A stretch of 64,000 nt of DNA. Source: Turritopsis dohrnii (Eukaryota > Cnidaria > Hydrozoa > Anthoathecata > Oceaniidae). Location of the stretch: contig BQMF02000135.1 of the NCBI GenBank assembly GCA_027922465.2, forward strand, positions 124,001 to 188,000, written 5' to 3'. Under the pieces are notes generated by a model. That model worked only from the letters and a program-made list of their open reading frames with translations, was not told where the DNA came from and ran no database searches. Both the position numbers and the translations under genes were made by a program. Below, in pieces: positions 1 to 60,771 of the stretch; positions within the stretch are counted from its first letter, which is position 1, and the number at the start of each line of letters is the position of its first letter.

Positions 1-606
1 AATAAAATATTCAAGTAAAGGGCCGTGGTCGAACTCATTAAAAAACTAAAAGAAAGGCTCTTTTCTTTGTAAGAGATATTGGAGGGATCCATCAAATATG
101 CTGTAAAACCCGATAACTCGAACTCTCGATAACTCGCTTGACCGTTCTGTTTGGCCAACACTTTGTTCTAAATAACTCTTACACTCGATGAGTTTGAGGT
201 TCGAGTTAGAAATACGAAAATTCTTAATTCCATGGAGTTATCGAGACTCGACTATACTTTCAATCGTAAAAATCTTGCTCATAAAACGTGCGTTTCACCA
301 AGTGCGTCATTCAAACTGTTCTATCAGTCGTGTTTCGAAACATCACTCACTAGCCTAAGTTTGTTGTTTATATAAATAAGTGTACTATCTCAAGTCTATT
401 GAAATAGAATATTAAAAAACATTACAAGGAAAAATTTATTTAATAAAAGCCAAAGAAACTTAAATTATTTCTAGATGACGTTTTTCATCTACCGTCCGAC
501 AACAATCGTCAGTATCTACCGTCAGTATCTTCACAATAACGACACGTGAAGTTGCTATGAAAACTCAGTTTTAAATAAAATTCATGGTCACCATAATTTT
601 GTTCTT
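1..606. other. 3' flank of the receptor gene, no coding exon seen
   Basis: AT-rich sequence downstream of the stop codon of the minus-strand receptor gene. No exon-like frame is visible. On the minus strand an AATAAA hexamer (plus-strand TTTATT at 435-440) lies about 170 bases past the stop at 607-609 and is a reasonable poly(A) signal, giving a short 3' UTR. The remainder holds nothing I can name. Confidence 0.5.
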
Positions 607-1813
607 TCATGCCATCTTTCCAGAATTCGTTATCCCATTCAAATCTTTAATCAAACCTTCTAATCCAGCCATTTCCGATTCAAGATCACTCAATGCCTAA
701 AACGAGTGAAATATTTTCGTGGTAAAACAAAGTAGCACAGAGTAGCACAGAGAAGAAGAGCGTTGCTCCAGGTATTTAAGAGATTTACCGGATGACTGGC
801 CGATCTGGTGTCTGTCGAATGATACTCGTATTCGTGACTCACGTTTTGGACACTACCATATCCGCGAGTTGGTGAATCATGCTAGCAACAAAAGAAAATA
901 GAACATTAATTAGGAACGCATGAGAAAAGGACATTGATATTAACTTTAGTTCAACGTACTTGGGAATAGGAAGCAGATGCATTCGTCGCTTTCTTTGGCA
1001 AAGTCGTTGTTGTTGTTGACGTCGTGTGTTGATACGTCATGGAATATTGAAATGACGTGCCGTTGTTGGGTATTTGGTTAATCTCGTTATTCTGTCCGAA
1101 AGACTTTGAACGGGTTCTCGGAATAGTGCCGGTATTATTCGGTAATGTTCCGTTAGAAAATGTTGATTTGTACCCACCATCGTCGTAACCATGGGAAAAA
1201 CTGGAATAACTACTATCGTGGCCATGGAAACCACCACCAGAACTGTAACTTCTCTGACCTATCGAAAACTGAGGATCGCGTGGCGAAGCGTAAATAGATG
1301 ACCCTCCTCCAAAGGTTTGATTAAGTTGCGTCATCGATCCCTGTCTGGAACCAGGTCGCGAACTAGGTCGAGAGGCTGGTCTAGAGCCTGGTCTCGAGGG
1401 TGGTCTCGATCCAGTCCTGGAACCGTGTCGTGAAGTAGAATAACTTGTGGGAACTGACCCACCCATGTGACCAACAGTTACAATGCCACTTCCGTGTGTT
1501 AAACTAACACCACCGGAAGGTCCTGCTGTTTGGTTCGACTCCAATGCTGCTCCAAATTCAACTAACGATTCTAACAAACCCAAGCCTTGCAGAGCTTCAA
1601 ACGCTGCATGTTGCTCTGCCTCCAGGCGAGTTTGAAAGTAATCGCTACTCTGGAAAAACAAACCACCGAATTTTAACCTGGCCGAATAACCTTGCGTGCT
1701 TTGATTTGTTATGTACTGCGGAGGAGGGAGTTTATATCGTTGACAGAAATCGTGTAAACTGCTCTTGAATGAGATGAAGTTTGAATCACCTGGACCAGGA
1801 ACAGTGAAGCATG
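607..1813 (-). other. Exons 25-27: dsRBD3, SR-rich linker and C-terminal P3 motif
   Basis: Exon 960-1813 encodes dsRBD3 (FKSSLHDFCQRYKLPPPQY ... EAEQHAAFEALQGLGLL), then a Gly/Ser region with about seven repeats of the form GSRPxSRP (near 1340-1430), and ends in phase 0 at CAA/gtacgt. Exon 789-881 adds 31 residues (acceptor tgctag, donor gtaaat). Exon 607-696 adds ALSDLESEMAGLEGLIKDLN and a short end, then TGA. The last exon matches the P3 motif that closes DCC and neogenin (LEGLM-K-LNAIT). A stop exists at 951-953 if the 960 donor is not used, giving a possible shorter tail that lacks P3. Confidence 0.85.
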
Positions 1814-3969
1814 CTAAGTGAAGTAAAATATAGAATGAAAAAAGAATTAATAGAACTATTTTATACGATCCCCATTATGATGCCAGAAAAGGCTGAGGCT
1901 CAAATTATTGCTTTAAAAAGTCACGAACTGCAAGATTTAATATTCTGGGAAAATAATAATATTTAAAATTCTGCATTTTCTGCACGCTTATGAGATTGAT
2001 GATATTGTGCACCAAGCACAGGTGAGACGTAAAAAAAGTTTCAAAAATAAAAAAACACGTATCCAATAGGGAAACCTACATTCTGGATAATATCCACTTT
2101 GCGAATCCGTCATACATAAACCTTGCAAAGAAATACACGCGACTTTCTGTTCAGCTTCTTGAGAACTTCTCACTCTTCCCGGCATGTTGAAAGTATGGCT
2201 ACCAACTTGTACCTGGGATGATACATCGTAGTTGATTATGGTATAAATACAAAAGTAAAGAAGAACAAAAAATAGATTTTTAAAAAGTAATATGATAAAA
2301 TATGATAAAAATATTCGTACGGATGATCCATAGCCATTATCATGCTTCGATGTGCTGAATCGCGGTGGCAAGATGTTGCATTGTTGGCAGAAATCGTGCA
2401 AGCTACACTTATAAGAGATGAAGGAAGCATCGCCGGGGCTTGGTACCGAAATACTCGCTAAAAACAAACAAATAGATAAACACTATCGACAACAACAACA
2501 ACAACAACAAAATGTGCATATGTATCCATCAGTGCATTCTTACCGTCGTTAGCATATTTACTCGATAAGTCAAGCACACCAAGTTCAATCAAAGCAGTGT
2601 GAGCAGCTTTTTGTTCAGCTTCTTGTCTCGACGATCCAAATTCGTCACCTTTACCGTATGTTGAACCACCAAAGGAAACTTTTGAAATGTAGCCTGAATT
2701 AGTGTTGGTTGTGGTCGTATAAATGGGTGCTAACCAACCCACTTTCTGACAGTAATCCTGAAGAGATGTCTTGTAAGATATGAAGGTCGTGTCACCGGGT
2801 ATCGGTACTTTCACTTTCGCTATAGAACTTTTACTGGTCTGTCGACTCAATGACGGTCTAGAAAAACAGAACAGACATACGAATCTTGTCATTTTACGCT
2901 TAAAAAGAAGTTACATTAAAGCCAGAATACTTTTCTGCGACATCTCTTTGTGATGTGCATGACACACACAAGAAAAAAAAACTGCTATCGTAATCCCCTA
3001 TTTAAGTTTGTTCACTAAACAATAACAGACGGTCGTGTTAGTTCAGACAACATGAAATCTTAATCAGCACGAAATATTTCAGGGTTGCTTGAGGACTTTT
3101 CAAAAGGTGATAGGTAAAGTTTTCGCAAATAGAATCGATTCATGGTTTTCCGATAAAGATGAAGGATTGAGTAGAGAAAGAGTAGAAATCAAAAAGTAAA
3201 TAGAAAGAATAAAAAAAATAAAACGAATAAATCTGAGTACAAAACAGTTACTTTAAAATCGCTAACAAGAAATTATAAAAAAAATTTTTTTCAGGAAGTT
3301 ACTTTGGACAAACCATAAATGCCATCTTGAAAAAGACAACAAAATTTTAATTTTCGCTTTAGATTTTAATTGGCTTAGATGTTGACTGGCATAGATTTTA
3401 ATTGGCTTAGATGTTGACTGGCGTAGATTTTGCCGAAAATACGGCGAGGTCAAAAAACAATACATCTATACTAAAATGACATCATACAGCAAAAAAGTGC
3501 TACACTTTGTATACTCCTTTCTCACTGACCGAACATAACGTTTGTATTATAAAACCTGCGATATCATAATATTTTGAAAGAAAATAAATCTTGACATTCC
3601 TCTATGTGGCCTTTTAATGAATGAATCAAATACGTCATCAAATTACGTCATCCAACAACTATGTGAGAAATCAAACAATGCAGCTTTCATAACTAACATA
3701 GGTCTTACTTACCCAGTCATACTGGAACGCGCAGAGCGCGCAGTAAGTAGATCGCTTTCATGGGCTGCCGAGGTGAGAGGCATTAGCTCAATTTGATCTT
3801 TCTTGCCAGTCATCCACAAGTCTGGAGGCGCTTCGGCATGTCCGTTCGAGGCTTTTTCTTCACCGCCAATAATTGTGATTGGCGCAGCGATATATGTCTT
3901 TTGGTCTTTTCTAGAAAAAAAAAATAATAGGAAGTAAGAAAAAATAACAACGATAATAAAAGTTACAAT

Positions 3970-4057
<88 letters not shown>

Positions 4058-7000
4058 TACGTCTTCTTCTTTTCTTTACAACAACAAGGACAGCAACACA
4101 AACACCATGGTAAGCAACAACAAAACCAACATTTCTTGCAACACGGACAGCAGGCAAAGCAAGCCAGCAATCCGTTTCTTTTACAGCAACAGCAGTATAT
4201 GATCAACAATATCAACAGAATAAGAAGAATTATGAGGATGATAATAAGAAGGATCCACCACAGCTCGAAGTCATTTCCACCTATGAAGAGAAGGAAGGAA
4301 ATTGTACCAATAAATGAAAAAAGAATGCTTGACCAATCGACAATATGAATGAACGAATATACGAACGGCCGACCATAGGAACGAATGAGTGGGTGGCTGG
4401 TCATACATACGAACGATCAAATGACCAACCGACCACACAAACAAACGAATGGCCGGCTGACCACGAACTACCAAAATGATCAACACACCATCATGTTTAT
4501 GAGCAGAACCACCAGGCACAATAATCACTAAGATCAAACAGATACAATCGTAAGAAATCAAATTATCATTAAAATATAGAAATTAAAATGAAAACAAACC
4601 TCCGCCATCACCACCATTGGTGGATGGAAGACCGCCCCCAGGAACATAAACACCGCCTAAAAAAATTTCAGGTTCGTATTCTTAAGAGTTCGTCATTTGA
4701 TTTTAATTTTTACTTGAGAGGGATATTTATTGCTGAATGAAATTTTTACCTGTCCTTTTTGAGTACACCACAGACTTTTCACCTTCTCCAGCTCCGTTGA
4801 CAGCATACAAGACGAATTGATAGCTCGTACCAGCTGCTAATCCTGTGACGTTGTGATACATGCTAGCATCTGGATGGAAACATAAAATAGGCCGATAAGT
4901 GTGTTTGTCTAACAAGACTCGATCATGTAATCTTTATAGATGAAAGTCCCTTATATTCGTTCGATAGAACGAGGAATTATGCAGTAATTTGCTCGCTTAA
5001 CACAGACAGGAATAGTTTACCACCCATAAATGATTGCTTGCATTTTTTTTACCTTTTGATGTCACACTGCTCCATTTGTTTAGAGGTAAATTTCGGTCTG
5101 CTGTATAAAGAATGACATATTCTTTGATTTTTCCATTCGGATGACGAGGCACCTGCCAGCTCAATATCAACCATGTCGGATACTTGGAAACTCCACGTGC
5201 TGTGACGTCTAACGGTTTGCTAGGAACTGGTAAAAGATGGAAAATTAATGTTAGGGAAAATTATGCTCATCAATGAAGTAGAAACCTTTGCAAAACCCAA
5301 TTACGCTATCCATACCAGCTTCTAGAGTTTTGCATTCCAAAGTAGGCAAAGCAGGAAAATTTGCATCTGATTTTCGCTTAACAAAGAATTTGTATGTAGT
5401 GTAGGGTGTGAGTCCAGCAATAGTAATTTCTGGCACGACGGTTGTTTTCAAGATAGTATTAGGAACTCCATTCACATCAAAGCTTTTGTATCTACAAACA
5501 AAGGAGAAAATGTTACTGTAAGTCCAGGATTAGACTCTTCTAAGTTCATGATTTAATGTCGTTTACCTAACTTCATAATTGATGTTATTCCTTTGAAGAC
5601 TATCTGTCCACTTGAAGAATATACTGTCCGCTTTCTTATCAACACTCTCGATGTATATAGCTGGTATCACAACTAGAAGGGGAAAGATGTGTTGTGTTCA
5701 GGTCAAGAGCTTACAATACACAAGCACACAATACAATTGAATCTATCACGTAAAGGGTGTATGTGTGGTGGGACAGGGTGATGTGGGGGGCATCGATAAG
5801 GTTACCTGCCAAAGTTCTTGCACGTCGAACAACAGGGTTGCTGTTACCAAAATCATTGTATGACCAAATTGTCAATTCATATAGTGTGTCGGGTTCTAAA
5901 CAATTGAAAGATCAAAATGTAAACTAAACCATAATTTTTACACCTTTGCAGGTTTTACTTATAGGAATAGTAATTTTTAGACGAGTCTTGTTATTTCTGG
6001 GTTTTTATAAAAATGAGCAAGGAATATAGTTATAATAATATCAGTCCTAGGATCGAAACTTTTTTCAAAAAAAAATGAAATAATTCTAATTAAGAACATG
6101 AACAGTTTCATTTAAAACAAGATAGCAAAGTGAATCAAAGCATGGAGCATCTCACTATCAAAAATCATGATGATTTGAAATTGAAGGAAATGGTTTAGCA
6201 TGTTATTTCAGGTATTCTCCACTGTCCAAGTCATTTGCAGCATCTCTACTATTCTTATGGAGGATATCTGAGTGAGTTTTTCTTACCTATATTGTTATAG
6301 AGCTGGATGTTGGTATTCGTTCGTTCTGGGAGTTTATTATCAAAAATTTCTTTTCCACTTCCACTCGCAACAATTTTAACATGGTATCCCCTAACAACGA
6401 CAGGTGGTGTTTCTGCGGGTGGCTTCCATGACACAGACAAGGAATCAGGTTTAGGTATGACTACCACATTTACAGGAGGTGGTGGTCTAACATTTTCTAA
6501 AGTATTCATTTAAAAGAAATGCTATAGATTTAATGCATTCCAACAGTGGCAACAGCATGCCAAGATAGCTTTGTTTGCTTTTTTTCTTATGAAGAAGAAA
6601 GTAGAAGGAGAAGCATCTGCGGAGTGTGCAGGAAAAGCTAAAGTTAAAAACATAATAGACCAAATAGTTTTTGAGCGGTGGTGCATAAAACAAACCTTGC
6701 ATTGTATTGATACGAATAACTTGAGAATTCTTTCCTTCACCATTATTATCAGTAGCAACAACATAACACTCATAGGTTTCACCAAATTCAAAGTTAGTAA
6801 TGTTGTAACCCTTTGAATTTCCTGTCAGAGTAAGATGAGACCAATTTAATGAACCAACTTGTCGATAATACAATATATAACTGTTCACCGAGCCAGTTAT
6901 AAATTGTGGTTCATTCCAAGTGATCATAATTGAATCAGGAACATTTGCATGATGGACACCTTTAAACCCTGTAGGTGCACTGGGTCCTAAGATGAAATAC

Positions 7001-10000
7001 CAATTATTCAAAAAAGGTTTTCTACAAAACATTGCATATATATAATTTATAATTTATTTATAATTTCACTTTGGTTTCGTACCTATCTTGGTCTTATCTC
7101 TTGTTTTAACAGTCAGTATATTAGAAGAATCACCCATACCACTGCCACTAACACCGCTAACTTTGACATTATACATGGTTAGTGGCTTCAAATTCTCAAT
7201 CTTCCACTCTGTTACAGAGATCTAGAAGAAAGTCAATAGCATGTTTGTACTTATGCTTACAACTGATTAATTTTTACTATATGCTTCTGCAGCAGAACAA
7301 CTCACAGGAATGTCTGAAATACTTCTCAATGTTTCTGCTTGTCTGCCATACTCATAGTACAAAATTTTATACTTTACAAGTTTACCACGGAAACTATTTT
7401 GTGCTATCGGATCCCATTTGACTTTTATGGAAGTACTACTCACAGAAACTGACTGTATTGTTGCTGGTGCAGGAGGCACTAAACAAAATAATAATGTTTT
7501 CAGTTTTATTCAATTATGAAAAACTTAATCAATTCATAACAACATGCAAAAGTTTTCAACAATAACAAACACATAAAACGAAATACCTTCCTCTAGCATC
7601 CTTAAACTTCTGATAGCTGATTTCCGTCCACTTGAACCTTTCACAGATGGAATTACATAGAAAATGTAGTTTGCATATGGCACTAAACCTTTAAGCATTA
7701 CAGTTGTTGCGGTTGTTGAAAGTGTTTGTAATGGTGCAGAATTATCATCAATATTTTGGTAGTACACTGTGTAGTTGTCCGGTCTTGGTCCACTAAAATA
7801 TTTCAACAGTATACAGTATCGAAAATATACACATAACAATAGTATTGGTGGAAAGTAAGAGGGTACCTTCTTGGTGGAGTCCATTTAACATTCACTACAT
7901 CAGAAAGCACTGGTGTGATGACAACATTTTGAACAGCGTTTGGTGGCAACACCGGAGCTAAAGTTTAGAGGGTAAAATCTTTATAAATATTTCTAATTAA
8001 TCAAGACCTCATGGTGTGTACCTGATGAAAGATTTTATCAAATTGAATACAGAGAATGAATATTATTTGATCAAATATTTGAAAGCATTCCAAAACAAGT
8101 TACCTGAAGGGATAGTCACTAAAGACTCTTGCGATTTTATGCCCGGAGTACCATCTGCATATGGTGTTACCCAATATTTATAAGTAGCATCTGGCAAGAG
8201 ATTTGGAATCACAATTGATGTCAAGGATGTTTCAAGTTCCGTCACAGCTCCTCCATGAATGTTTTGATAATATACTTTATATGAAGTAGGTTTTCCACTG
8301 AAAATATCAAAATAGGTTGTGAAGGTTAAAGAAACTTAATCACTCACACAAAGTTTTCATTTTGTTCATCAAATTGTCCAAAATTTAGAAATCTCAAATG
8401 GATTAAAAATTAGTTTAAAATCAGTAACCTTGATGGAATATCCCACGATAATCTAAGCTGTGTTCCGGATACATAGCTTTGTATATTCCTGGCTTCAGTT
8501 ATTGGAGTTTTATTTGGCAATGTCTTTGCACTAACAATATCTGATAATGGTCCAGTACTATCAGAATTTAATGCTTGTAATCTAAATTTATATGTTGAAT
8601 CTGGAATCAAGTTGGAGATTGTGAGGAATCTTGTGTTGCCTTCAATAGTTATCTTTTCTGAAAATAAAAATACGCATAACAAGAAAAATGTAAAAGTGAA
8701 CGCTTCATCATATCCATATAATGCACTTAAGAAGCAAAAATCTTTGTCTTATTTTTTCATGACAAAAGAAATGATGAAGATTTTAGAAATTTTTCTGAAA
8801 TAACATATTTTCATACCTGCAGATTCGATGGTAGTAAAATATATTATTTGATAGCCAATGATAGGCCCATTTGTAATGGAAGGTTCTAGCCAAGATAATG
8901 CTATTGCAGTAGATGACTTTGCATAAGCTTGTATATTCCTTGGTTTACTGGGAGTACTTATTGTCACTGGCGTAGTTACAGTACCTAAATGAAGATACAA
9001 ACTGTGCAATAATTTTCAAAAAGAAAATTAAAATCAATATTGAAACTCCTCCTAAAGCTTGGTTTCCAATAGAATTATTTTTGTTGCACAACCGTTTTGC
9101 AGCACTTTGTTGTGCAACAAGTGTAGGAAATTGTTGCAGAGATAGATTTTTTTCTATCTCTGCAACAGGTGTTGTACAACATATCTTTTGTTGCACAACA
9201 TTCAGGCTTGTTGTGCGAAAGTTCTGAAAAACGGTTGCACAACCGTTGTGCAACAAAAATAATTTTATTGGAAACCAAGCTTAAAGTGTATCAATATTCT
9301 GTATTGATTTTAAGTTTTATTCTAGTTTTGATCTCCAGTAGAACCTGTTAATGGAGACACTGCACAAATCTGTTTATTGTCAAGAAGTCTTCTTCATCCT
9401 ATAAGGCGAGGCTCACAGTAGAGATTAAGAATTCCAGGTCAATGAGAACAGTCACTATTAATCAGACAATTTTGGGTGATAAAAAGATTTATCTTTTCAG
9501 AGCTCAAATAAATAAGCGTACAGCATAAAATTAATTATTATGGCCACATTCAAGAAAGTGAAAGCGAAAGTTATAAGTTATTCCAAACAATTCGTTCCGC
9601 AAACAGACTTCGAACGAAATTTTTAGGCTGCGTTTACACCTTGTATGTAATGCTAGAATTGTGGTAGAAAATAATGACCCCTTAGAATATTTTCACCCCC
9701 GTGGTTTACGCTTATGACTTGTTAGGTTTTCTTTGTTATTGTTATTGTTAGGGTTAAGGTTAGTCTAAACCACGGGGGGTGAAAATATTCTAAGGGGTCA
9801 TTATTTTCTACTACAGAATATACAATGATAGCTCGAAGCTATTAAAGGTAAGTGTTATTTTAGAAGTCTGCTCGAGCGATAGCGACCAAATTATAACTCA
9901 TCTTTTAAAATGTATTACAAAGAAATCTTCAATACTACTTGAAACGAAATGTCTGGAGATGGTGCAACCTGATATTCTGATGATTACTGTTTAAAATTCG

Positions 10001-12147
10001 CAGGGATTTATTTTCGCGTTAAAAACATTTTCTTTTACGGGGTTTGTGTTCGCAGTCGAGGGCAAAAAATAATTTTCGCAGGAAAAAAATCAGTTTTTGT
10101 TTGTGTTTTTATTATTCTATTAAGGCGCTTTTAACAATTTTTTCTCATTATGGTAGTTAACGGAATTATGGGAATTACTATTGGCTTGGACATTGGAATT
10201 CCGCATTCTTTCTATAATTCTCCATTCCTTCAGCGGTTAGTTTAAAATCGTTAATGAGTACGATTAAATTGCTTTTTTTTACTAATTTAAAAAGTACTTA
10301 ATTCTGCCTATCGATTTTTAAAGCACGCGAAGATTTCTCCAACTTTAACAGTACGAATACGAGTACCTTATCGGGGATAATTTCGTCGGGGAAAATGTTC
10401 GTCGGGGAAACTTTCGTCAGTTTGAAAAAATTAACTAATACTTTCTAATAGATTTCACTTTTTCAAACTTTTCGTCGGGGAAAATTTTCGTCACTTTTTC
10501 CCGACGAAATTATACCCGACAAGGTAACAAAATAGTGATAAGGTTTTACCTGGAGGCTGAACGAGCAATTCAAGCGACATTTGTGCGTCCCCACCGGCGT
10601 TGCTTGCTCTAGCCTGATACATTCCAGAATCAGCTTTAATCAAGTCTTTTATAATTAAATAATTTTCACCAAATTCTACAAAATCTGCCGCTGCGTCAAC
10701 CAGAACGCTATCACGAAACCAGACGATTTTTGGCTTTGGAAAACCAACCACTTTAAAATCGAATTTGACTGTTCCATCTTCCTGTCCATAAACTCGTTTG
10801 GGAGGGATCAAGGTAAATTGTGGCGGACCTGAGAAAATAGTAATCGTTGAATATACATTCCATCGCCATGTACTGCCGTTGAGAATGTCGAGTGTTGGAG
10901 GAGTTAATACTTACTGACAACTGTCACTTTTGCAGTCGATTCAAGCGTTTGGCCAGCCGACGTCGCGACAACCTTGTAATCACCCGAATCTTCTTCCTTG
11001 ACGTATAAGAGTTTTAGATTGCCTTTACCAACGATACTTCTCCTGTCATCCAGTTGAATTTCATTACCGTCTTTATACCATTTATAAGAAACTGCATTTG
11101 CACTATCTGCACAGGCTTCTAGTATTGTGCTTCTTCCCCATGCAAGCTCAACGTTCTGTGGAGTTCCCAAAAAATAAAAACCTTTGCTCGAAGGTCTTGC
11201 ATTATCTATAAAAAGATCCATTTTTAGACTTAATGGGGCCTTTTACCTTTGTCATAATTCTACCAGTCCAGACTTTGGTCAAGAGTCGTTTAGGGACGTG
11301 TTTAATGACACTCAACGAACAACATGGAACTGAAGAGTTTTACATATTTCTGCGTCACTTTTATTTTGACGTAAAAAAATGGGGCGGTTAAGCAGCCAAT
11401 CACATTTCCTTACCTGATTCTACAGTCAATTGCGCAAAGTTACCAGTGAAAGTTTGCGCCTTTTTAGTTCCCGACGTAGAGCGACTTCTAGCTATTGCCC
11501 GAATTTCCCCGCTGTCCGACGTTCTCATGTTGTTGATTTGCAGGACACCTTGCGGCAGGACAAAAAACCTGGTATCTGTATTACGTATCGCTGGTTTGCC
11601 TCGATAATTCCAGCCGATCATAGGAGCAGGTATAAAATTCGAAGCATCGACAGATAAGCGCATTGCACCTCCGACGTAACCAGTTTGTGTGCTAACATCT
11701 TGTTTGAAAACACTCGGAAATTCTATAGATAAAAAAACAGAAAATAACAAAAAAGTATCATTACTGAAATATGTTTGTTGTAAAGGCTAATTGTTTACTT
11801 GTACTCTGGATTTTGGCTTCTCTTGATAGAAGTACCAACTCAAGGTTGTTATACTTGACTATAGCTTTGCATGTGTATATGCCAACATCATCCGCAGGGT
11901 TGAATTTCTCGATGGTCAGGTCTCCATCTACAGATAGTTTTAGTCTCCCATCAATTTCTAATTCTTTGCCATTTTGAATCCAAATGAATTCGGGAGGAGG
12001 GGTCCCGGTTGCACGGCATTTCAACGTCAAATCTTGGCCTTCGTTAGCAAATGCATTTTGTGGTTCTTCTGTCATCGCCGGTGGAGAGTAGTTGGCACAT
12101 GCCAACTGAAGGATTACAACGAAAACAATAAAACTATTGCAATGCAT
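607..12147 (-). CDS. DCC/neogenin-like netrin receptor with three cytoplasmic dsRBDs (fusion)
   Basis: Single-pass receptor, 27 exons, about 1,896 residues by my count. Exons: 11799-12147, 11414-11722, 10915-11205, 10550-10828, 8817-8984, 8429-8657, 8104-8297, 7867-7957, 7587-7792, 7306-7478, 7083-7221, 6696-6986, 6287-6496, 5806-5895, 5567-5672, 5316-5491, 5053-5226, 4750-4869, 4600-4656, 4061-4280, 3713-3910, 2544-2857, 2321-2457, 2080-2212, 960-1813, 789-881, 607-696. All junctions are GT-AG and every phase closes. The start is the ATG opening a signal peptide (MHCNSFIVFVVILQLACA). Order: 4 Ig (to about 409), 8 FnIII (to about 1198), Gly-rich stalk, TM (about 1222-1248), Cys cluster, P1-like APPDLW (about 1320), dsRBD1-3 (about 1380-1625), SR-rich linker, C-terminal P3 (LEGLIKDLN). 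Ig/FnIII order plus P1 and P3 identify the DCC/neogenin family (netrin/RGM guidance receptors). Vertebrate members have six FnIII and, as far as I know, no dsRBD. Exon calls are by eye. Confidence 0.85.
2080..2457 (-). other. Exons 23-24: cytoplasmic dsRBD2 of the receptor
   Basis: Two exons (2321-2457 and 2080-2212) share one dsRBD. The first carries PSPGDASFISYKCSLHDFCQ and ends in phase 0 at a gtacga donor. The second carries the VQVG strand and helix 2 (SSQEAEQKVACISLQGL). The opening pattern PGDxxFIS(Y/F)KxSLxDfCQ recurs in dsRBD1 and dsRBD3, so the three domains look like tandem copies of one ancestor. The block of exons 22-25 totals 1,438 bases, not a multiple of three, so it cannot be skipped as a unit without breaking the frame. 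Confidence 0.85.
2544..2857 (-). other. Exon 22: cytoplasmic dsRBD1 of the receptor
   Basis: The exon opens after a pyrimidine-rich acceptor (tttttctag) with one base that completes the GG left by the P1 exon (donor at 3712), so reading passes from SSMTG to PSLSRQ without a break. It encodes a whole dsRBD: helix 1 SLQDYCQK, strands around GYISKVSFGG, then helix 2 EAEQKAAHTALIEL. The frame stays open into the intron as far as an ATG at 2890-2892, so a separate start there is formally possible. However, those extra residues are encoded by the polypyrimidine tract, which argues for an intron. The donor is gtaagaat at 2543. Confidence 0.85.
3360..3423. repeat. Two-copy 32-bp tandem repeat in receptor intron
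   Basis: A 32-base unit beginning tagattttaattggctta is present twice head to tail, with a partial third start. It lies in the intron between the P1 exon and dsRBD1. No coding role is seen. Confidence 0.8.
3968..4056. repeat. (CAA)n / (GTT)n microsatellite at a 5' splice site
   Basis: About thirty CAA triplets on the plus strand. On the gene strand this reads (GTT)n and starts immediately behind the gtatgt donor of the transmembrane exon (4061-4280). The open frames here (poly-Val, poly-Leu) are translations of the repeat, not genes. Confidence 0.95.
9055..9282. mobile_element. MITE-like perfect inverted-repeat element (228 bp)
   Basis: Ends read aagcttggtttccaatagaa and its reverse complement, continuing inward through ttattttgttgcacaaccgt for more than 40 bases, so most of the element can fold into one hairpin. 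It lies in the large intron between Ig4 and the first FnIII exon of the receptor. No coding capacity. Confidence 0.8.
9662..9816. mobile_element. Short inverted-repeat element (about 155 bp)
   Basis: Arms of about 50 bases, tagaaaataatgacccctta and its inverse, face each other around a short spacer containing gttattgttagggttaagg. Typical fold-back MITE in the receptor intron. Confidence 0.75.
10364..10526. mobile_element. Inverted-repeat element with TCGTCGGGGAAA subrepeats
   Basis: Ends taccttatcggggataattt / aaattatacccgacaaggta are inverted with a few mismatches. The inside carries several copies of ttcgtcggggaaa. The element stops about 24 bases from the donor of the Ig4 exon. Confidence 0.7.
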
Positions 12148-17395: not shown

Positions 17396-28909
<11,514 letters not shown>

Positions 28910-29639
28910 TCTAAAAAAAGAATTCAAATTGTTGAATGTTCTTTCTTGGTAAACAAATACTTCATAATCATCAAAAACATCAAAAGGAAGAAAGAAACTA
29001 AATTCTAGCAAATTTTGCAACTATTAAAAATAATGAAGTATTTATTTTTATCAGTTCAATCAATCAATCAATATATACATATTTATTTGCCAAGAAAATT
29101 AGTAAATGAAATTACAATAAGGTCTAGGCAGGAGACCACCCCAATAGCGAATACTAAACAAAGGGGGTGGCCACCAAATAAATTAACAAATAAACTAAAT
29201 TAAAAAATTAAGATAACAAACAAAAAATGGTTTGAGTATGAGAAACAAAACTTCTGGAGAGAGAGACTAGATGGTATATTTTTCAAGGAAGAATTTTGTG
29301 GTTAAGGTTTTTAGGTGAGAATAGTTTAGTAAAGCTAGATCACGATTTGGATATTGACTTTGCATATGATTCCAGCAAGAAATTGATTGAAATTTCATTG
29401 AAGCAATTCCAAATGCTTCAGTTTTTACTGAAGGTTGATGTAGGTGCCCATATGAAAATATGGGAGAGTTTAGTGTAATTGAAAGTACTATGAATGCTGG
29501 GAGGGGGTTTTAAAGTTCAAGGCTTGATGAATAAATATAATATTCAATGACTTAACAAGGTCAAAGATATTCAGTAATTTAAGAGAGGCCGAGAGGGTGC
29601 AATAGGATTTGAGAAGGTTAGGATTCGGACAGCAGCCTT

Positions 29640-31011: not shown

Positions 31012-31767
31012 TCGATTTCCGGATGTACAAAATTCGAAACATTAAATTTCAACCAATCAGAGTGTGTCCTTCGTATGCGGCAAATGCGCAGAAGAAAAAA
31101 TTTAGAAGTTTGAATGAATTTTTTGAGATTTCCCTTGTGTTTATTAGTATCAAATAAAATCTTTTTAAAGAAAATGGCGTTTGGCTGTCATGCGAAGATA
31201 ATTTTTGTAAATGTCAGGTTCCTCTAAGATCAGCTCCCTAAGAAGTTGTGCATAAAAACCATGGCTATCTGTACGCTGTAACCAGGGCTTTGCGCAATCA
31301 CTTCTACGCTTTCTTAGTTTTTATTATCATCACAGTATAGCGCGATTATAATAGATGCGGTTGCAATTTTCACCTTCTCTAGCACATCCATCTTCACTTT
31401 TATTACTGTTATGAAAAAGTATAATATGATTTTACATAACGTGTATTTTACTATTACATATATGATTTTTTCCATTCATCAATTGAGTATGTAAAATCAT
31501 ATATGTAAAATCAGATCGTGTATTTTGACCTTAAAGGGGAATTGAGGTTTAGAAAAAAATTTTTTTTAAATTTCACTAAACATTCAAGAATAGCGTTTAT
31601 ATTCATAAGATAAAAGAATTTTCAAAAAATCTTTATTATTTCACAAAATAGAAGCATTTAAAAATTTTCATTTTTGAGTTCAAAGTCTGTTTTCTGACGT
31701 CATTGGTGTCATATCAATATACGAGCGCACGTGTTAGTTACTATAATATATCCTCATCGCTGGCAAC

Positions 31768-32169
31768 ATGCCTACGTGTCTTGCTTTCGGATGTTCAAAT
31801 AACAGTGGAAAAGTCAAAAATAAGAGTTACTTCAGGTTTCCTGATCCAAAGAAATGCAGATCACAATGTATTCGTTGGTTACATAATATGGGGAATGCAA
31901 AATGGAATATCAACAACTTTGTTCCAAGTAATCGTCGACTTTGCAGTGATCATTTCCATGATGAATGCTTTGAGCGAGATTTGAAGTATGAGTTAATGCC
32001 ACATTATGGACATAGTTCAAAAAAGTTAAAACCAGGTGTTGTACCGACGATATTTTCGCACAAGACATACAACCAAATAAATATCGATGGAACTACAATA
32101 TCAAACAAACAATCAGCATCTCGTAAGCGAAGTTTGGATTTGCAACATGCACATGTAAGTTGTAAATAA
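31768..32169 (+). CDS. THAP-domain protein (transposon-encoded, first exon)
   Basis: 133 codons to the first stop. Residues 1-90 are a THAP zinc-coordinating DNA-binding domain: MPTCLAFGCSNN with C4 and C9, the central Trp (IRWLHNMG), then RRLCSDHFHDECFE giving the final C and H, and the closing VVPTIF. A strong donor (cat/gtaagt, about 32153) precedes the stop, so the real transcript may splice onward. In the element it would act as the DNA-binding part of a transposase or an accessory protein. It faces the cysteine-rich gene on the other strand. Confidence 0.8.
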   Translation: MPTCLAFGCSNNSGKVKNKSYFRFPDPKKCRSQCIRWLHNMGNAKWNINNFVPSNRRLCSDHFHDECFERDLKYELMPHYGHSSKKLKPGVVPTIFSHKTYNQINIDGTTISNKQSASRKRSLDLQHAHVSCK

Positions 32170-34543: not shown

Positions 34544-36342
34544 CCGGGTGAGTCAAAAAAAAGTACCGTTGTTTCACAAAACATATCTTTCGATGGAATA
34601 TCTATGACAGCTAGTGTTTTTTATTTCTGAATAGAGGAATCCTTTACCTACATTTTGGTGTATCATTTGTCTAATTTGGTTGAGTAGAAAGAAAATTATG
34701 GACAAAAAAATGGAGGTGGTCCTTGTAAAATTCTTCGAAAAATGACGAAAAAAGCTGAACAAAACTTCTCGAAACAAGATTTTGTTCTTATTGCAAACCG
34801 TATGGGATTGAAACTCATACACACTTCCATATGCTAAAACTATTCCCAATGCTCAAATTAAGTAAAAAGTTCAAACTTTTTTCAAAATTTTATTAAAACT
34901 TTACTTGATGAAGTTTTTTATAAAGACTGTTTTGTAAAAAATGCCACAACTCACGTTACAACAAAGAATTTGGGTATGTATCCAGTTTGCTAGGTTGAAT
35001 AATGCTGCAGAGGTAGTTAGACAATGGAATAACCGTTGGCCTAACGTACCTTCTCCTACTCGTAGAACTGTTGTCAAAACGTTTCAAAAATTTGAAAGAG
35101 AAGGTACTTGTAAAAACCTCAATAAAGGAAACAGTGGAAGACCCCGTACAGCAAGATCACAGAACAACGTAAACATGGTTCTTCAATCCTTACAACAGAA
35201 TGGGAATCGATCATCAAGACGAAATGGTCTTGGATTATCACAAAGCACATTCATAAGAATCACTCGTGAATTGAAATTTCACCCATATGTTCTGATTAGA
35301 AGGCAAAAGTTGAGAGCTAATGATCCTGGTCAAAGGTTAGCGTTTTGCAACTGGTTTTTGCATCGTTTAAACATCGACAATGGTTTCCTTCAAAACCTGA
35401 TTGTATCAGATGAAGCAATCTTCTCTCTGAACTCAGAAGTGAACACAAAAAATGTTATCCAGTATTGTCCCTTTGGTAATGGTCATCCACAAGATCACTA
35501 CGTAGAATTCGAACAAGGAGATAATCAAATCATGGTGTGGATGGGCTTAACGGGAGAAGGTCATGTATTGGGCCCTCATTTTGTAAGGGGTCGCTTAGAT
35601 ACCAGAGAATATTTGCGTATTATTCGCTATCACGTTGTTCAAGGTGATCTTCGTCGGCTAAACATCAATAGAGCTAACACGTGGTTTCAACAAGATGGAG
35701 CACCTGCTCATACAAGCAATCAGTCATTAAGATACCTTTATCGACAGTTTCCTGGTAAAGTTATCAGTAAAAGAGGAGATCAGCCTTGGCCACCACGCTC
35801 TCCAGATCTAGCGATATGTGATTTCTTTCTTTGGGGTCACTTAAAACAAAAGATCTGGACTCAACCGCAACAAAACTTACCACAGAATCTCAGACAACTT
35901 CAAAGAGCAATCATCGATGCAAGTAATAACTTAGATCCTGTAATGATAATGAAAGCGTTTGATGGTATGGTTCATCGTATTAATAAATGTGTCCAAGATA
36001 ACGGAAACGCCTTTCCAAATGAATAAAAAATAGTTTTATCTTTAACATTGTGTCTTTTCTCTCAATTCCCACAGCCCTTTCATTAACATTATCAAATTTA
36101 ATCAAAGAATCACGCATTAAGTTTTGTTAAGCTTTTTTCGTCATTTTTCGAAGATTTTTACAAGGACCACCTCCATTTTTTTGTCCATAACTTTCTTTCT
36201 ACTCAACCAAATTAGACAAATGATACACCAAAATGTAGGTAAAGGATTCCTCTATTCAGAAATAAAAAACACTAGCTTTCATAGTTATTGAATCGAAAAA
36301 TATGTTTTGTGAAACAACGGTACTTTTTTTTGACTCACCCGG
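34544..36342 (+). mobile_element. Mariner-type (IS630/Tc1/mariner) element, apparently intact
   Basis: Inverted ends ccgggtgagtcaaaaaaaag / its reverse complement, flanked by TA (34542-34543, 36343-36344). The inverted repeats are long, about 220 bp each, with only scattered mismatches between arms. One uninterrupted transposase gene lies between. Inserted in the LINE endonuclease. Confidence 0.92.
34941..36026 (+). CDS. Mariner-type DDE transposase
   Basis: 361 residues, no frameshift or stop. The N-terminal third is a helix-turn-helix region (LTLQQRIWVCIQFARLNNAA; then GRPRTARS, a linker with the usual GRPR-like motif; then a second HTH, SRRNGLGLSQSTFIRI). The catalytic half has IVSDEAIF (first Asp), WFQQDGAPAHT (second Asp) and PPRSPDLAICDFFLWG (third acidic residue, Asp, about 37 residues after the second). 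This is the pattern of insect and cnidarian mariner/Tc-like transposases with DDE_3 domains, which cut and paste at TA. Length and motifs are complete, so activity is plausible. An ATG opens the HTH directly. Confidence 0.92.
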   Translation: MPQLTLQQRIWVCIQFARLNNAAEVVRQWNNRWPNVPSPTRRTVVKTFQKFEREGTCKNLNKGNSGRPRTARSQNNVNMVLQSLQQNGNRSSRRNGLGLSQSTFIRITRELKFHPYVLIRRQKLRANDPGQRLAFCNWFLHRLNIDNGFLQNLIVSDEAIFSLNSEVNTKNVIQYCPFGNGHPQDHYVEFEQGDNQIMVWMGLTGEGHVLGPHFVRGRLDTREYLRIIRYHVVQGDLRRLNINRANTWFQQDGAPAHTSNQSLRYLYRQFPGKVISKRGDQPWPPRSPDLAICDFFLWGHLKQKIWTQPQQNLPQNLRQLQRAIIDASNNLDPVMIMKAFDGMVHRINKCVQDNGNAFPNE

Positions 36343-56379: not shown

Positions 56380-57885
56380 TTATCTTAAATGTTGCTTCTC
56401 GCCATCTCTTTCATCAGTATGGTTTCTTCTGTACAACACTGCCACTGTAATTACAACAATTAATGACAATATACAGAGCACAATGAGTATGATGTAACCT
56501 ACACCAAGACCACCACCATCCTTATCAGCAGATCCTTTCTTCTTTTCACAACGATTGCCTTCATATTGACTGGTACAGTTACATCGATATGCTGATTCAC
56601 TCACTTCTATGCAGGTACCATTATGAAAACATGGATTAGGGTAACACACTTTCTTTACTTCACACTTGTCTCCTTGGAAACCAGCTGTGCAATTGCACGA
56701 AAAAGCAGTTTCGTTAACAATGTTGCAAACTCCGTTATTCTGACATGGATTTCGAGCACACATGATTTCCTGTTCGCAGTGTTTACCTTTAAAACCATAT
56801 GCACATGAGCAGTTGTAAGTACTCTTGGAAAACACATTACAGGTACCATTGTTCACACATGGATTGTAAGAACATATTGTACAATTCAATAAATTATTGG
56901 TAACAACATCCATTATCCATATGGTTTCTACAGAATTTGGTAAACGACAAGTCCCATTTATTTTTACATTTGGTTCTGTCTTGGCAAACTGCTGGAAAAG
57001 TTCGTATAGATGGCATTCACAAGCTAAAGGATTATTGGACAAGTCAAGTTTTATATAAAGAGCTGTATCAATAAATGCATCTTTTTGGATGGACTTGAGT
57101 TGATTTCCAGATAGATCTATTATATCTGGCTCTAACTTACTGAATGTTCCAGGTTCAATGGAAGAGATACTATTATTAGCAATGAAAATATTGTATACAG
57201 ATTTCATATTCCTGAAGAGTTTTGGATTGAGTTCTGTAAGTGAATTGTTTGTGAGCCATAGATCTTGAAGATTTCCCAAATCATCAAAAGTCCCAGCATC
57301 TAGACTCTTGATTCTGTTATTTTCCAAACTGAGTTTACGTAGATCGTGCAAATTTGAAAATGCTGTATCAGCTATTTTTGAAATCTGGTTACCTTCCAAG
57401 TATAAGCTGGTAAGTTGAGGTGTATGTTTGAAAACATTATCTCCAAGATTTGTCAAAAGGTTACCATACAAATCTAAATCTTTAATATTGCCATAAGTTT
57501 CTAAGTCACTTTCCTTAAGTTCTGTGAACTGATTTCTGTTCAAGAATATTAAAGCTAGCTTTGGCAAATATGTGGAGATGTTTTGTGGGAAGCCTGTCAT
57601 AAGATTATTGCCCAGATATAAGCCAACTAATGAACTAAAATTTTTAAACAATGCAGTGGGGAAGTACTTGATTCGATTTTCAGCAAGATATAATTCCCTG
57701 GCAACTGATGTTAAGTTCCCAAATCCATTAGCAAGTGAAAGCAAATCTTCATTGCTGATATTCTTTCGAAAACATTGAATCTTTGACTTTAAGCATGTTT
57801 CACATTTATCAGGACATTTTGCCACCACCACAAAACCATGCAAACATAACAGACAACCACAGATTGTAATATATAAACTTTTCAT
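56380..57885 (-). CDS. Single-pass membrane protein with leucine-rich repeats and three EGF domains
   Basis: 501 residues in one uninterrupted frame. Residues 1-22 are a signal peptide (MKSLYITICGCLLCLHGFVV). Residues 24-40 are an LRRNT-type Cys cap (CPDKCETCLKSKIQC). Next come about nine to ten LRRs of the LxxLxLxxNxI type, an LRRCT cap starting NPLACECHLYELFQQF, then three EGF domains (CSYNPCVNNGTC, CARNPCQNNGVC, CYPNPCFHNGTC, each closed by a C-C-C pattern). Then a Gly-rich stalk, one TM (VGYIILIVLCILSLIVVITV) and a short basic tail. The layout recalls Slit fragments and vasorin (LRR plus EGF, cell surface), but three EGFs and no FnIII match neither; no orthologue is claimed. Likely an adhesion or signalling protein. 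ATG at 57883-57885 opens the signal peptide. Confidence 0.92.
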   Translation of the reverse strand: MKSLYITICGCLLCLHGFVVVAKCPDKCETCLKSKIQCFRKNISNEDLLSLANGFGNLTSVARELYLAENRIKYFPTALFKNFSSLVGLYLGNNLMTGFPQNISTYLPKLALIFLNRNQFTELKESDLETYGNIKDLDLYGNLLTNLGDNVFKHTPQLTSLYLEGNQISKIADTAFSNLHDLRKLSLENNRIKSLDAGTFDDLGNLQDLWLTNNSLTELNPKLFRNMKSVYNIFIANNSISSIEPGTFSKLEPDIIDLSGNQLKSIQKDAFIDTALYIKLDLSNNPLACECHLYELFQQFAKTEPNVKINGTCRLPNSVETIWIMDVVTNNLLNCTICSYNPCVNNGTCNVFSKSTYNCSCAYGFKGKHCEQEIMCARNPCQNNGVCNIVNETAFSCNCTAGFQGDKCEVKKVCYPNPCFHNGTCIEVSESAYRCNCTSQYEGNRCEKKKGSADKDGGGLGVGYIILIVLCILSLIVVITVAVLYRRNHTDERDGEKQHLR

Positions 57886-58935
57886 ATTGTTAACAATCTA
57901 TAATGAAAACGAAACGTGAGTAAAATTGAATACAATGCGATCCGTGTTGTCTCATCTCAATCTTCCATATTTTCATCATTATCATGTGATGTTTTCGGTT
58001 TTGGTTTGGACTATTAAAAATGTATTAGCCTTGGTTCATTACCACAACAATCCGACCATGTTTATTTTTTTTTGTTTGGTTTAAATGGGCGTGAAATCAT
58101 CAACTTCGAACCCAGCGTCTCTTGCTTTTTTTGAGATATAAAATGACAATAGCAGGAAATAAATAAAACTTTATTAAATCAATTCATTATACTTAATAAA
58201 TTTAGCACGAAGATTTTGGTTAAAATCGTTATAATCTTGTATTACAAAAACCTCATGTTAATTTTATTATTGAATTGAATGGACTATAAAATGTCACAAC
58301 AAACAACCACTTTATTTTAATAATATTTATGCAAGTGCTCTTAACTAATCTCTTATTCAATCAAGGAAGTTTTTTTTCATCATGCCTGTTGATAGAGAAT
58401 AACAGGAGATAGGGGATAAATTTGAATAATAAAGGATAACCGTAAGTGCCTTAAAGCTAAGGGGACACGAGCAACATTTTTCGTGCGATTGCAACAAATT
58501 TCACCCATAAAAAATATCAAATCAGTTTGATATTTCTTTTTGTTGCTGCAACAAATTTTTCATGTTGCAAATGCGTTTTGTAAAATGTCGCTAGTGTCCC
58601 CACATTTGCAACATGCTTTTATAAAAAACTTTTGTTTTTAATCCAATGACATTCGTTTATTTTTGCTGACATGTCAAAACAAGTTGGCTTCGGTAATCAT
58701 AACAACATGGCTTCCAACGAGAGCACGCAGTATTTTGCTGCAACAAATTCAACATAGACGAAAAATAAAAAATGTTGTCCTTGTCCCCGAAGCTTTACAG
58801 TTCCTTAACCATTAAGGAATTAATAACCGTGACATTTTAAAGAAATCCTATAGTGTGTATCAAAATGTCTTATCCACCAACTTTCAAGGCGTATATCTCA
58901 TTACATGTCTGATAAAATATGTGAATTTTATATCC
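57886..58935. other. 5' flank of the LRR/EGF gene
   Basis: Non-coding AT-rich sequence holding the presumed promoter of the minus-strand LRR/EGF gene and one MITE (58459-58789). No promoter motif stands out. Confidence 0.5.
58459..58789. mobile_element. MITE with a 5-bp duplication AAGCT
   Basis: Ends aaggggacacgagcaacatt and, inverted, aatgttgtccttgtccccg, flanked by aagct on both sides (58454-58458, 58790-58794). Inner copies of tgttgcaacaaat. 331 bp, non-coding. Confidence 0.7.
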
Positions 58936-59514
58936 CTAGCCGCCAAGGCGGCGTCGTTCGCCGCCCGTGTTCAGGCTGCGTCCAGTTCACGAAAAATAAA
59001 ATATAGGAATTTGCGATGACAGGTGTGCCCATGTTGAAGAGCTCGAAAAACTGATCAAAAAAATGTATGGGATCGTTTTGCTACGACCAACCGTTACGGA
59101 GGTATCGTTGATCAAAATTTTGATGACGTCATAGACCCGTCCCCCGAAAAAATTAGACCCAAATTTTTCGTGTCCCAATCGCCTGTATCGCGGACCCCAA
59201 AAAACGTCAGTTATCCCTATTGGTTACTGAGATAAATTTCCCTGAACGTCGTGTTCTAATTGGGTCTCAATGGAATGGCTTCACATTGACGTCGCGCAAA
59301 AGATAAGAAATCATTTCTCTCACAACTCACCTACCATTTTGCGTGACAGACAAACAAACAGACAAACAGAGGCTTTAAAAATGGCGGTCAGCCACGTGTG
59401 TTTTTATTTTCCCTAGGTATATTTTTTTCAATATCGCAACAGAAGATGGCGGATGTCTAACCGTCATTTTTTTATTGGAAAGTCATAAAAGCGGTCGACA
59501 AAGGTCAGCACCCT

Positions 59515-60771
59515 TTGGAATTGTTAAAATTCGCCGCTAATAACGCTTATCAGTACGCAGAAAAGAAAATGAAATATCACAAATTTGCAACATTCAATGT
59601 TCAAGGCTTAAATAGCGACATCAAGAAAATGAACCTCGCTGACAACTTCTTGCAACACAATATCACGGTGATGATGCTGCAGGAGACCCGCATCAAAGGT
59701 CAAGGAGCGTTATCATCAAATGGTAACACATTCACACTATTCAACTCTGGTCACAAATCCAACTCCTATGCTGGAACCGGCTTCCTCGTATCAGATTGCA
59801 ACACAACCTTCAAGCCGATCTCAGAAAGATTATGTATACTAACATCTACGTTCAAAAAATCAAAATATATGTTCATCAGCGCATACGCACCGACAAACGA
59901 ATCAACTATCAAGGATCCAGAGAATACTAGAACATTCTATGAAAGCCTATCTAATATCATCAATAGCGCTAACAAAAACGACATTGGTATTGTCGGAGGT
60001 GATTTCAACGCCAAAACTAAAATACCTAACCGAGATCATGCATTGAACAAAACTGTCGGGAAATACGCAGAAAGTAATATTAACAAGAAAGGAGAAAAAC
60101 TTATCGAACTATGTAATATTCATAATCTCCGTATAACTAATACTTTCTTCAAGCACAAGCCAATCCATCAAACAACATGGACGTCACCAGCTTTCTACAA
60201 AAATATCACTGACTCAAAATCGAAGAAACCGAGAAAGAACCCATATCGCAACCAAATCGATTACATACTTGTTAGAAACACCGTTAAGATCAAGATTACT
60301 GACTCGAAGTCTACCATAGACAAGATCACATCGTCTGATCATAAACCTGTTATTATGACAACGAACACTGCATTTCGAAAATCAACCAACAGCAAATCTA
60401 ATAAAGGAATTGATTACATCAAACTCAAAACACATGCTATTAGATCAAAATACAAAGAGATGGTCGAAACGAAAATCAAGAAACTCGACCAAGATATCAC
60501 CAATAGCCAAGAAAAGTGGGATAGAATATCAAAAATCCTGATCAATTCTGCAGAAACCGTTGGCTACAAAAAACCAAACAACAAATCTGATAACACAGAC
60601 ATCATCATGTTGTCAAATATACAGAGACACATTCAGAAACAAATCGAGTCAACAAAAAATGAAGAGCAGGTAGCCGTTCTCAAAAGATACCGAAATCGAG
60701 TCATGTATGAAATACATCGCGAAAAGAAGCTACTAGAAAACAAGAACACTCATGAGCTGTCTCGAGCATAA
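59515..60771 (+). CDS. LINE apurinic-type endonuclease frame
   Basis: 418 residues. Endonuclease motifs in order: ATFNVQGLNS (Asn of the active site), LQETRIKG (Glu), SAYAPTNES, VGGDFNAKT (Asp-x-Asn), QTTWTSP, RNQIDYILV (Asp), SSDHKPVIM (Asp-His). All catalytic residues are present. The last 150 residues are a basic linker rich in Lys/Asn toward RT. Its end overlaps the RT frame by 20 bases in a different frame, so in an intact master copy the two are probably one polyprotein or are joined by frame shifting or re-initiation. It lacks an ORF1-type RNA-binding domain. Confidence 0.93.
   Translation: MELLKFAANNAYQYAEKKMKYHKFATFNVQGLNSDIKKMNLADNFLQHNITVMMLQETRIKGQGALSSNGNTFTLFNSGHKSNSYAGTGFLVSDCNTTFKPISERLCILTSTFKKSKYMFISAYAPTNESTIKDPENTRTFYESLSNIINSANKNDIGIVGGDFNAKTKIPNRDHALNKTVGKYAESNINKKGEKLIELCNIHNLRITNTFFKHKPIHQTTWTSPAFYKNITDSKSKKPRKNPYRNQIDYILVRNTVKIKITDSKSTIDKITSSDHKPVIMTTNTAFRKSTNSKSNKGIDYIKLKTHAIRSKYKEMVETKIKKLDQDITNSQEKWDRISKILINSAETVGYKKPNNKSDNTDIIMLSNIQRHIQKQIESTKNEEQVAVLKRYRNRVMYEIHREKKLLENKNTHELSRA

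Follow-up and report, generated by a model that had tools for sequence, protein, structure and literature searches.

Here we describe a gene on the minus strand of a 64,000-nucleotide stretch of the Turritopsis dohrnii genome (contig BQMF02000135.1 of assembly GCA_027922465.2, positions 124,001 to 188,000; hereafter the window, to which all coordinates refer unless stated otherwise). The evidence supports the prediction that the locus encodes a receptor of the DCC/neogenin family with three double-stranded-RNA-binding domain (dsRBD) folds built into its tail. These three tandem domains, placed between the P1 and P3 motifs, are likely protein docks, and with a probability of about 0.4 they would hold a small-RNA complex of the Dicer/HYL1 type at the membrane under the control of receptor clustering.

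The gene model consists of 27 coding exons chained on the minus strand from position 12147 to 607 by GT-AG sites and open frame, and predicts a protein of 1,896 amino acids (aa). All introns are GT-AG and the spliced model contains no internal stop; the exons were predicted from the window sequence alone (minus strand read over positions 1-12000). A DCC/neogenin-type receptor with three dsRBDs in its tail had already been proposed in a preliminary description of this DNA; the spliced model and its Pfam domains confirmed this observation, and the earlier coordinates of the tail exons proved correct on re-chaining by splice sites and frame. The domain order is four immunoglobulin (Ig) domains, eight fibronectin type III (FNIII) domains, a membrane-spanning segment, a P1-like motif, dsRBD1-3 and P3. 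The dsRBD3 exon starts at 1813, and dsRBD2 is divided between 2457-2321 and 2212-2080. The parts of the gene are listed below, related sequences from protein searches being designated P0001 to P0013.

607-12147, minus strand: whole predicted gene, DCC/neogenin-type receptor with dsRBD tail (spliced model, Pfam).
10550-12147, minus strand: exons 1-4, signal-peptide-like start (by eye) and four Ig (I-set) domains (Pfam, PDB match).
4600-8984, minus strand: exons 5-19, eight FNIII domains and a short Gly-rich stalk (eight fn3 stretches in Pfam).
4061-4280, minus strand: exon 20, basic patch KEKKK and Cys-rich juxtamembrane stretch next to a membrane-spanning segment recognized by eye (sequence).
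3713-3910, minus strand: exon 21, P1-like motif PPDLW (spliced model; motif in P0001, P0002 and P0003).
2544-2857, minus strand: exon 22, dsRBD1, core 2581-2775 (44.6 bits in the genome search; 44.3 bits in Pfam, cut-off 23).
2321-2457, minus strand: exon 23, first half of dsRBD2 (14.4 bits in Pfam, below the cut-off; the P0002 counterpart of dsRBD2 has the fold).
2080-2212, minus strand: exon 24, second half of dsRBD2 (evidence as for exon 23; junction 23/24 gapless in the P0001-P0004 alignment).
960-1813, minus strand: exon 25, dsRBD3 (core 1581-1766), basic S-R-P linker and start of Neogenin_C (Pfam dsrm 34.1 bits).
789-881, minus strand: exon 26, tail linker inside the Neogenin_C match (spliced model, Pfam).
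607-696, minus strand: exon 27, P3 motif EMAGLEGLIKDLNGIT and stop (Neogenin_C 28.8 bits; matches to DCC P3 peptides).
435-440, minus strand: AATAAA, 167 bases beyond the stop and the first on this strand past position 4726 (motif scan).

Two repeats lie in introns of the gene: a long TTG/CAA trinucleotide repeat at 3963-4060, directly after the membrane exon, and an apparent inverted repeat at 9663-9810 (minus strand) in the large intron that separates Ig4 from FNIII1, by eye likely a small mobile element.

DCC and neogenin are composed of four Ig domains, six FNIII domains, a membrane-spanning segment and a tail with the motifs P1, P2 and P3. Ig1-4 of the window receptor, recognized by Pfam as four I-set stretches, have their best PDB match in DCC (3laf, 147.7 bits, query residues 9-391 of 392); a further DCC structure (5z5k) reaches 144.3 bits, and the top match outside DCC is titin (6fwx, 123.4 bits). 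The FNIII part scores highest against receptor phosphatases and titin. The last three or two of its domains match neogenin (7ndg, 77.8 bits) and DCC (5x83, 4urt), with PTPRF (6tpw, 101.6 bits), PTPRD and titin above neogenin; because the best stretch of PTPRF likewise falls on the last two domains, FNIII alone gives no family name. The likeness to DCC/neogenin comprises the DCC-type Ig1-4, the P1-like motif and the Neogenin_C end with P3, together with last FNIII domains that match neogenin and DCC among others.

The Neogenin_C profile of Pfam matches the very C-terminus with 28.8 bits (cut-off 25), reaching its last position. When the last 21 residues were compared with solved structures, the sole matches were P3 peptides of DCC (6bz3, 3pzd and 3au4; E 0.04-0.18), spanning the last 17 of the query residues. 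The exon at 3713-3910 bears the P1-like motif PPDLW, kept in P0001, P0002 and P0003; Neogenin_C positions 3-52 match the corresponding region of P0003, with a whole-protein score of 21.1 bits, below the 25-bit cut-off. A genome search with the Neogenin_C profile gave one place, the receptor locus, at 23 bits (below cut-off); a second neogenin without dsRBDs was not found by this search, which a diverged copy could escape, the locus itself scoring only 23 bits. The window receptor differs from DCC/neogenin in having three dsRBDs placed between P1 and P3 and eight fn3 stretches, against six in neogenin (PMC11599459). Its tail carries folded dsRBDs, whereas the ribosome-binding stretch of DCC is disordered and the neogenin tail is predicted to be disordered (PMC12556795).

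Related sequences were sought in a protein database that includes EukProt entries. Scoring of the 7,987 candidates with most shared words gave P0001 as sole match in the first protein search, and the third search, over candidates of about 605-1,925 aa, returned P0001, P0002 and P0003 only. P0001, a gene model from EukProt (1,822 aa), joins Ig and FNIII domains to PPDLW, three dsRBDs and P3; its membrane segment is not recognizable, the corresponding exon being missing or mispredicted. P0002 and P0003 share the order of the tail, with P1, dsRBD1-3 and P3 in a single uninterrupted open reading frame (ORF; longest contigs 2,833 and 2,502 bases), which in P0003 starts even earlier, at the Cys-rich stretch. 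Since P1 and P3 are 3.3 kb and six introns apart in the window, both were taken as probably cDNA-derived, though an intronless copy would look alike. From the membrane exon to P3, P0002 crosses six of the seven window junctions, its alignment having a gap of 5 residues at junction 21/22, and P0003 all seven. The version in P0004 is more diverged and closes with the P3-like EGLIQDLN, and P0005-P0013 look by eye like reading frames of genomic DNA that contain dsRBD3 or its end plus linker.

The receptor and its dsRBDs accordingly belong, as had been proposed, to one gene and not to two neighbors. The rival account, an artefact in which an adjacent receptor gene and a dsRBD gene are spliced together on paper, draws on window exons that were inferred from sequence, on the membrane segment not recognizable in P0001, and on the intron after P1, which when retained stops the frame immediately and which contains ATTAAA variants; these points weigh against a single receptor gene. 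Two separate genes or mis-splicing are contradicted by P0001 with its ectodomain and tail, by the unbroken ORFs of P0002 and P0003 across conserved junctions, and by exon 960-1813, which contains dsRBD3, the S-R-P linker and the first Neogenin_C residues together (the Neogenin_C match begins at aa 1813, the exon ends at aa 1836). On these comparisons the artefact is already largely refuted and highly improbable. Exon-skipping isoforms were likewise rejected: among 64 enumerated exon combinations only six reach P3, and all six include dsRBD1.

Judged by sequence identity, the dsRBDs and P3 rank among the best-conserved parts of the protein. Compared with P0001, identity amounts to 81% (76/94) for dsRBD3, 64% (58/90) for dsRBD2, 53% (48/91) for dsRBD1 and 77% (23/30) for the P3 exon, versus 43% (127/292) for Ig2-4, 32% (251/775) for FNIII and 31% (66/215) for the linker; the ectodomain comparison involves this one relative, as P0002 and P0003 cover the tail only. 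The values for P0002 and P0003 are 90 and 83% (dsRBD3), 86 and 81% (dsRBD2), 67 and 67% (dsRBD1), 90 and 79% (P3 exon) and 63 and 54% (linker), and the Cys-rich juxtamembrane stretch is 75% identical to that of P0003 (27/36 aligned). The tail linker contains a basic S-R-P repeat (1330-1425, minus strand), with similar repeats in most relatives checked.

According to fold comparison all three tail domains adopt the dsRBD fold, dsRBD2, examined in P0002, by fold only; scanned separately against Pfam dsrm, dsRBD1 and dsRBD3 score above the cut-off and dsRBD2 below it. The nearest solved relatives by sequence are DRB4 and HYL1. By fold, too, dsRBD3 is nearest to plant HYL1 (its dsRBD1), and TRBP, R2D2 and Loqs in complex with Dicer stand high in the fold ranking. 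Because of these likenesses we infer that the receptor dsRBDs descend from a HYL1/DRB-like partner of Dicer, from which they differ by their place in a receptor tail, their neutral to acidic character and the loss of the second Region-3 lysine. An NCBIfam scan gave weak RNase III matches only, and an Rfam scan of the window gave no match at gathering score.

Type B dsRBDs are devoid of the two critical Region-3 lysines and bind proteins, Dicer included (PMC5716075); the non-RNA-binding dsRBD of Drosha has the same residue pattern as the receptor domains (PMC5549741). The Region-3 pair reads RQ, NQ or KQ in dsRBD1 and RL or RI in dsRBD3; in dsRBD2 it is SQ, with a single GL. Among 21 receptor dsRBD rows, which leave out P0012 and P0013 (not caught by the pattern) and the cut dsRBD1 of P0004, the second place is never basic (Q, L or I), and hence both places are basic in none. 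In controls from the same genome, read by eye, the second place is basic in 6/6 and both places in 3/6; these are six of the 11 other dsrm places, C774, C12 (twice) and C211 (twice) being left out. The isoelectric point (pI) lies at 5.3-7.1 in each of the 12 dsRBDs from the window and three relatives, versus 10.0 and 9.5 in the one gene used as control here, a HYL1-like gene on C635. The receptor domains therefore have the dsRBD fold without the lysine pair of the canonical Type A, as found in Type B (third dsRBD of TRBP, PACT and Loqs, Drosha, fifth dsRBD of Staufen), and are likely Type-B-like protein docks rather than binders of structured RNA. They differ from Type B in forming a tandem of three within a membrane receptor, in the basic residue that 15 of the 21 rows have at the first Region-3 place, and in their most conserved surface, which in dsRBD1 and dsRBD2 is the N-terminal motif plus alpha-1 and not the beta-sheet.

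The preliminary description had the tail contacting structured RNA, which, with the second Region-3 lysine lost and the domains neutral to acidic, is no longer the best reading, although the tail may still make some RNA contact. It is doubtful that the three dsRBDs bind structured RNA (mRNA, rRNA or pre-miRNA) at the membrane, weak domains adding up with the help of the basic linker. Several features speak for such binding and weigh against protein docks: the three tandem copies, the first Region-3 place, basic in 15 of the 21 rows, the basic S-R-P linker, and the N-terminal motif with alpha-1, an RNA-facing helix too, as best-kept element (22/30 in dsRBD1, 24/30 in dsRBD2). An imperfect motif (KKxAE, KKxAS) does not preclude RNA binding by a dsRBD, but mutation of both lysines abolished RNA binding by dsRBD1 of MLE (PMC6486548), and the second lysine is absent from all receptor rows. 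Loop 2 is short as well, though equally short in the HYL1-like gene of the same genome.

This HYL1-like gene (C635, 100500-110400) has two basic dsRBDs, keeps the Region-3 KK and has DRB4, DRB3 and HYL1 as nearest solved relatives, so that the genome encodes an ordinary HYL1-like protein in addition to the receptor. Among six dsrm loci outside the window (L001-L004, L006 and L007; L002 and L004 are both C635) it is nearest to the receptor dsRBDs (E 1.7e-9, against 0.27 or weaker for the remaining four). A long ORF adjoining it looks, by eye, like a retroelement. HYL1-like genes occur in cnidarians, sponges and ctenophores and were undetected in Placozoa and bilaterians; in Nematostella, Hyl1La has three DSRM domains, the number also found in the receptor, and acts in microRNA (miRNA) biogenesis, while its stinging-cell-specific HYL1 paralog Hyl1Lb has 'additional protein domains' (PMC9098223). 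Hyl1Lb is required for miR-2022 (PMC10548089). The excerpts of PMC9098223, PMC10548089, PMC9923473 and PMC11811051 do not name the additional domains, and the words fibronectin, immunoglobulin and neogenin are absent from the text of PMC9098223 as searched. The receptor gene may be a member of the clade of Hyl1La and Hyl1Lb, unrecognized or already described; among the papers listed in literature searches, judged by titles and abstract openings, no report on dsRBDs in DCC/neogenin was found.

In another reading the tail is freed by gamma-secretase and serves as a HYL1-like co-factor for particular miRNAs in nucleus or cytosol, and the gene may be the counterpart of Hyl1Lb. In vertebrates gamma-secretase frees the neogenin tail, which can reach the nucleus (PMC11599459), Hyl1Lb combines additional domains (PMC9098223) with a requirement for miR-2022 (PMC10548089), and a separate basic gene such as that on C635 would be expected were the receptor the second, 'b'-type gene. 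We nevertheless consider this unlikely: the nature of the extra domains is not stated in the excerpts, the protein searches, EukProt entries included, gave no match tied to Nematostella (the species of the matches, P0001 included, are not shown), and the receptor dsRBDs are without the lysines of a canonical dsRNA binder. Quite unlikely is a triplet that serves as a self-association device, clustered tails dimerizing without RNA machinery and replacing or aiding the DCC tail-tail contact. Type B dsRBDs of PACT, TRBP, Loqs and Staufen do homodimerize (PMC5716075), and netrin-1 triggers homodimerization through the C-tail of DCC (PMC12556795), but P3 is kept too and three conserved copies exceed the apparent need of a dimer.

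In the preferred reading, protein docks for a small-RNA complex, the receptor dsRBDs would bind protein as Type B dsRBDs do, and the docked partner would be Dicer-type small-RNA machinery. A netrin- or RGM-type ligand could gather the tails, whereupon the partner would be loaded or released. Vertebrate DCC regulates local translation, its disordered tail holding the 60S subunit by a basic juxtamembrane stretch and part of P1 (PMC12556795). The window receptor has similar elements, followed by the dsRBDs; its juxtamembrane basic patch and P1-like motif could thus place a translation platform beside a small-RNA platform, and a link of the tail to a silencing or translation complex is plausible. 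Whether the netrin-type receptor is itself a Dicer partner, with a captured HYL1-type triplet by which a guidance cue sets the RNAs processed or translated, and perhaps the cnidarian Hyl1Lb, is doubtful; if it were both, maturation of miR-2022 in stinging cells would be under receptor control. A conserved HYL1-type triplet between P1 and P3 would link a guidance receptor directly to the small-RNA or translation machinery in a genetically tractable form, and the origin of receptor-linked RNA control, likely outside bilaterians, would become testable.

Elsewhere in the window, exons at 20727-29020 (minus strand) encode an apparent multi-pass membrane protein without Pfam match at 1e-5, perhaps pecanex-like. 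A THAP-domain ORF is located at 31747-32169 (plus strand), and an ORF of 362 aa at 34938-36026 (plus strand), without Pfam match at the same threshold, looks by eye like a transposase. At 56380-57897 (minus strand), about 44 kb from the receptor gene, a single ORF of 505 aa combines six LRR_8 stretches, EGF-like domains and, by eye, a membrane-spanning end, that is, Slit-like parts on a membrane protein. Two overlapping ORFs at 59461-62524 (plus strand) with endonuclease and reverse-transcriptase domains represent an element of the long interspersed nuclear element (LINE) type.

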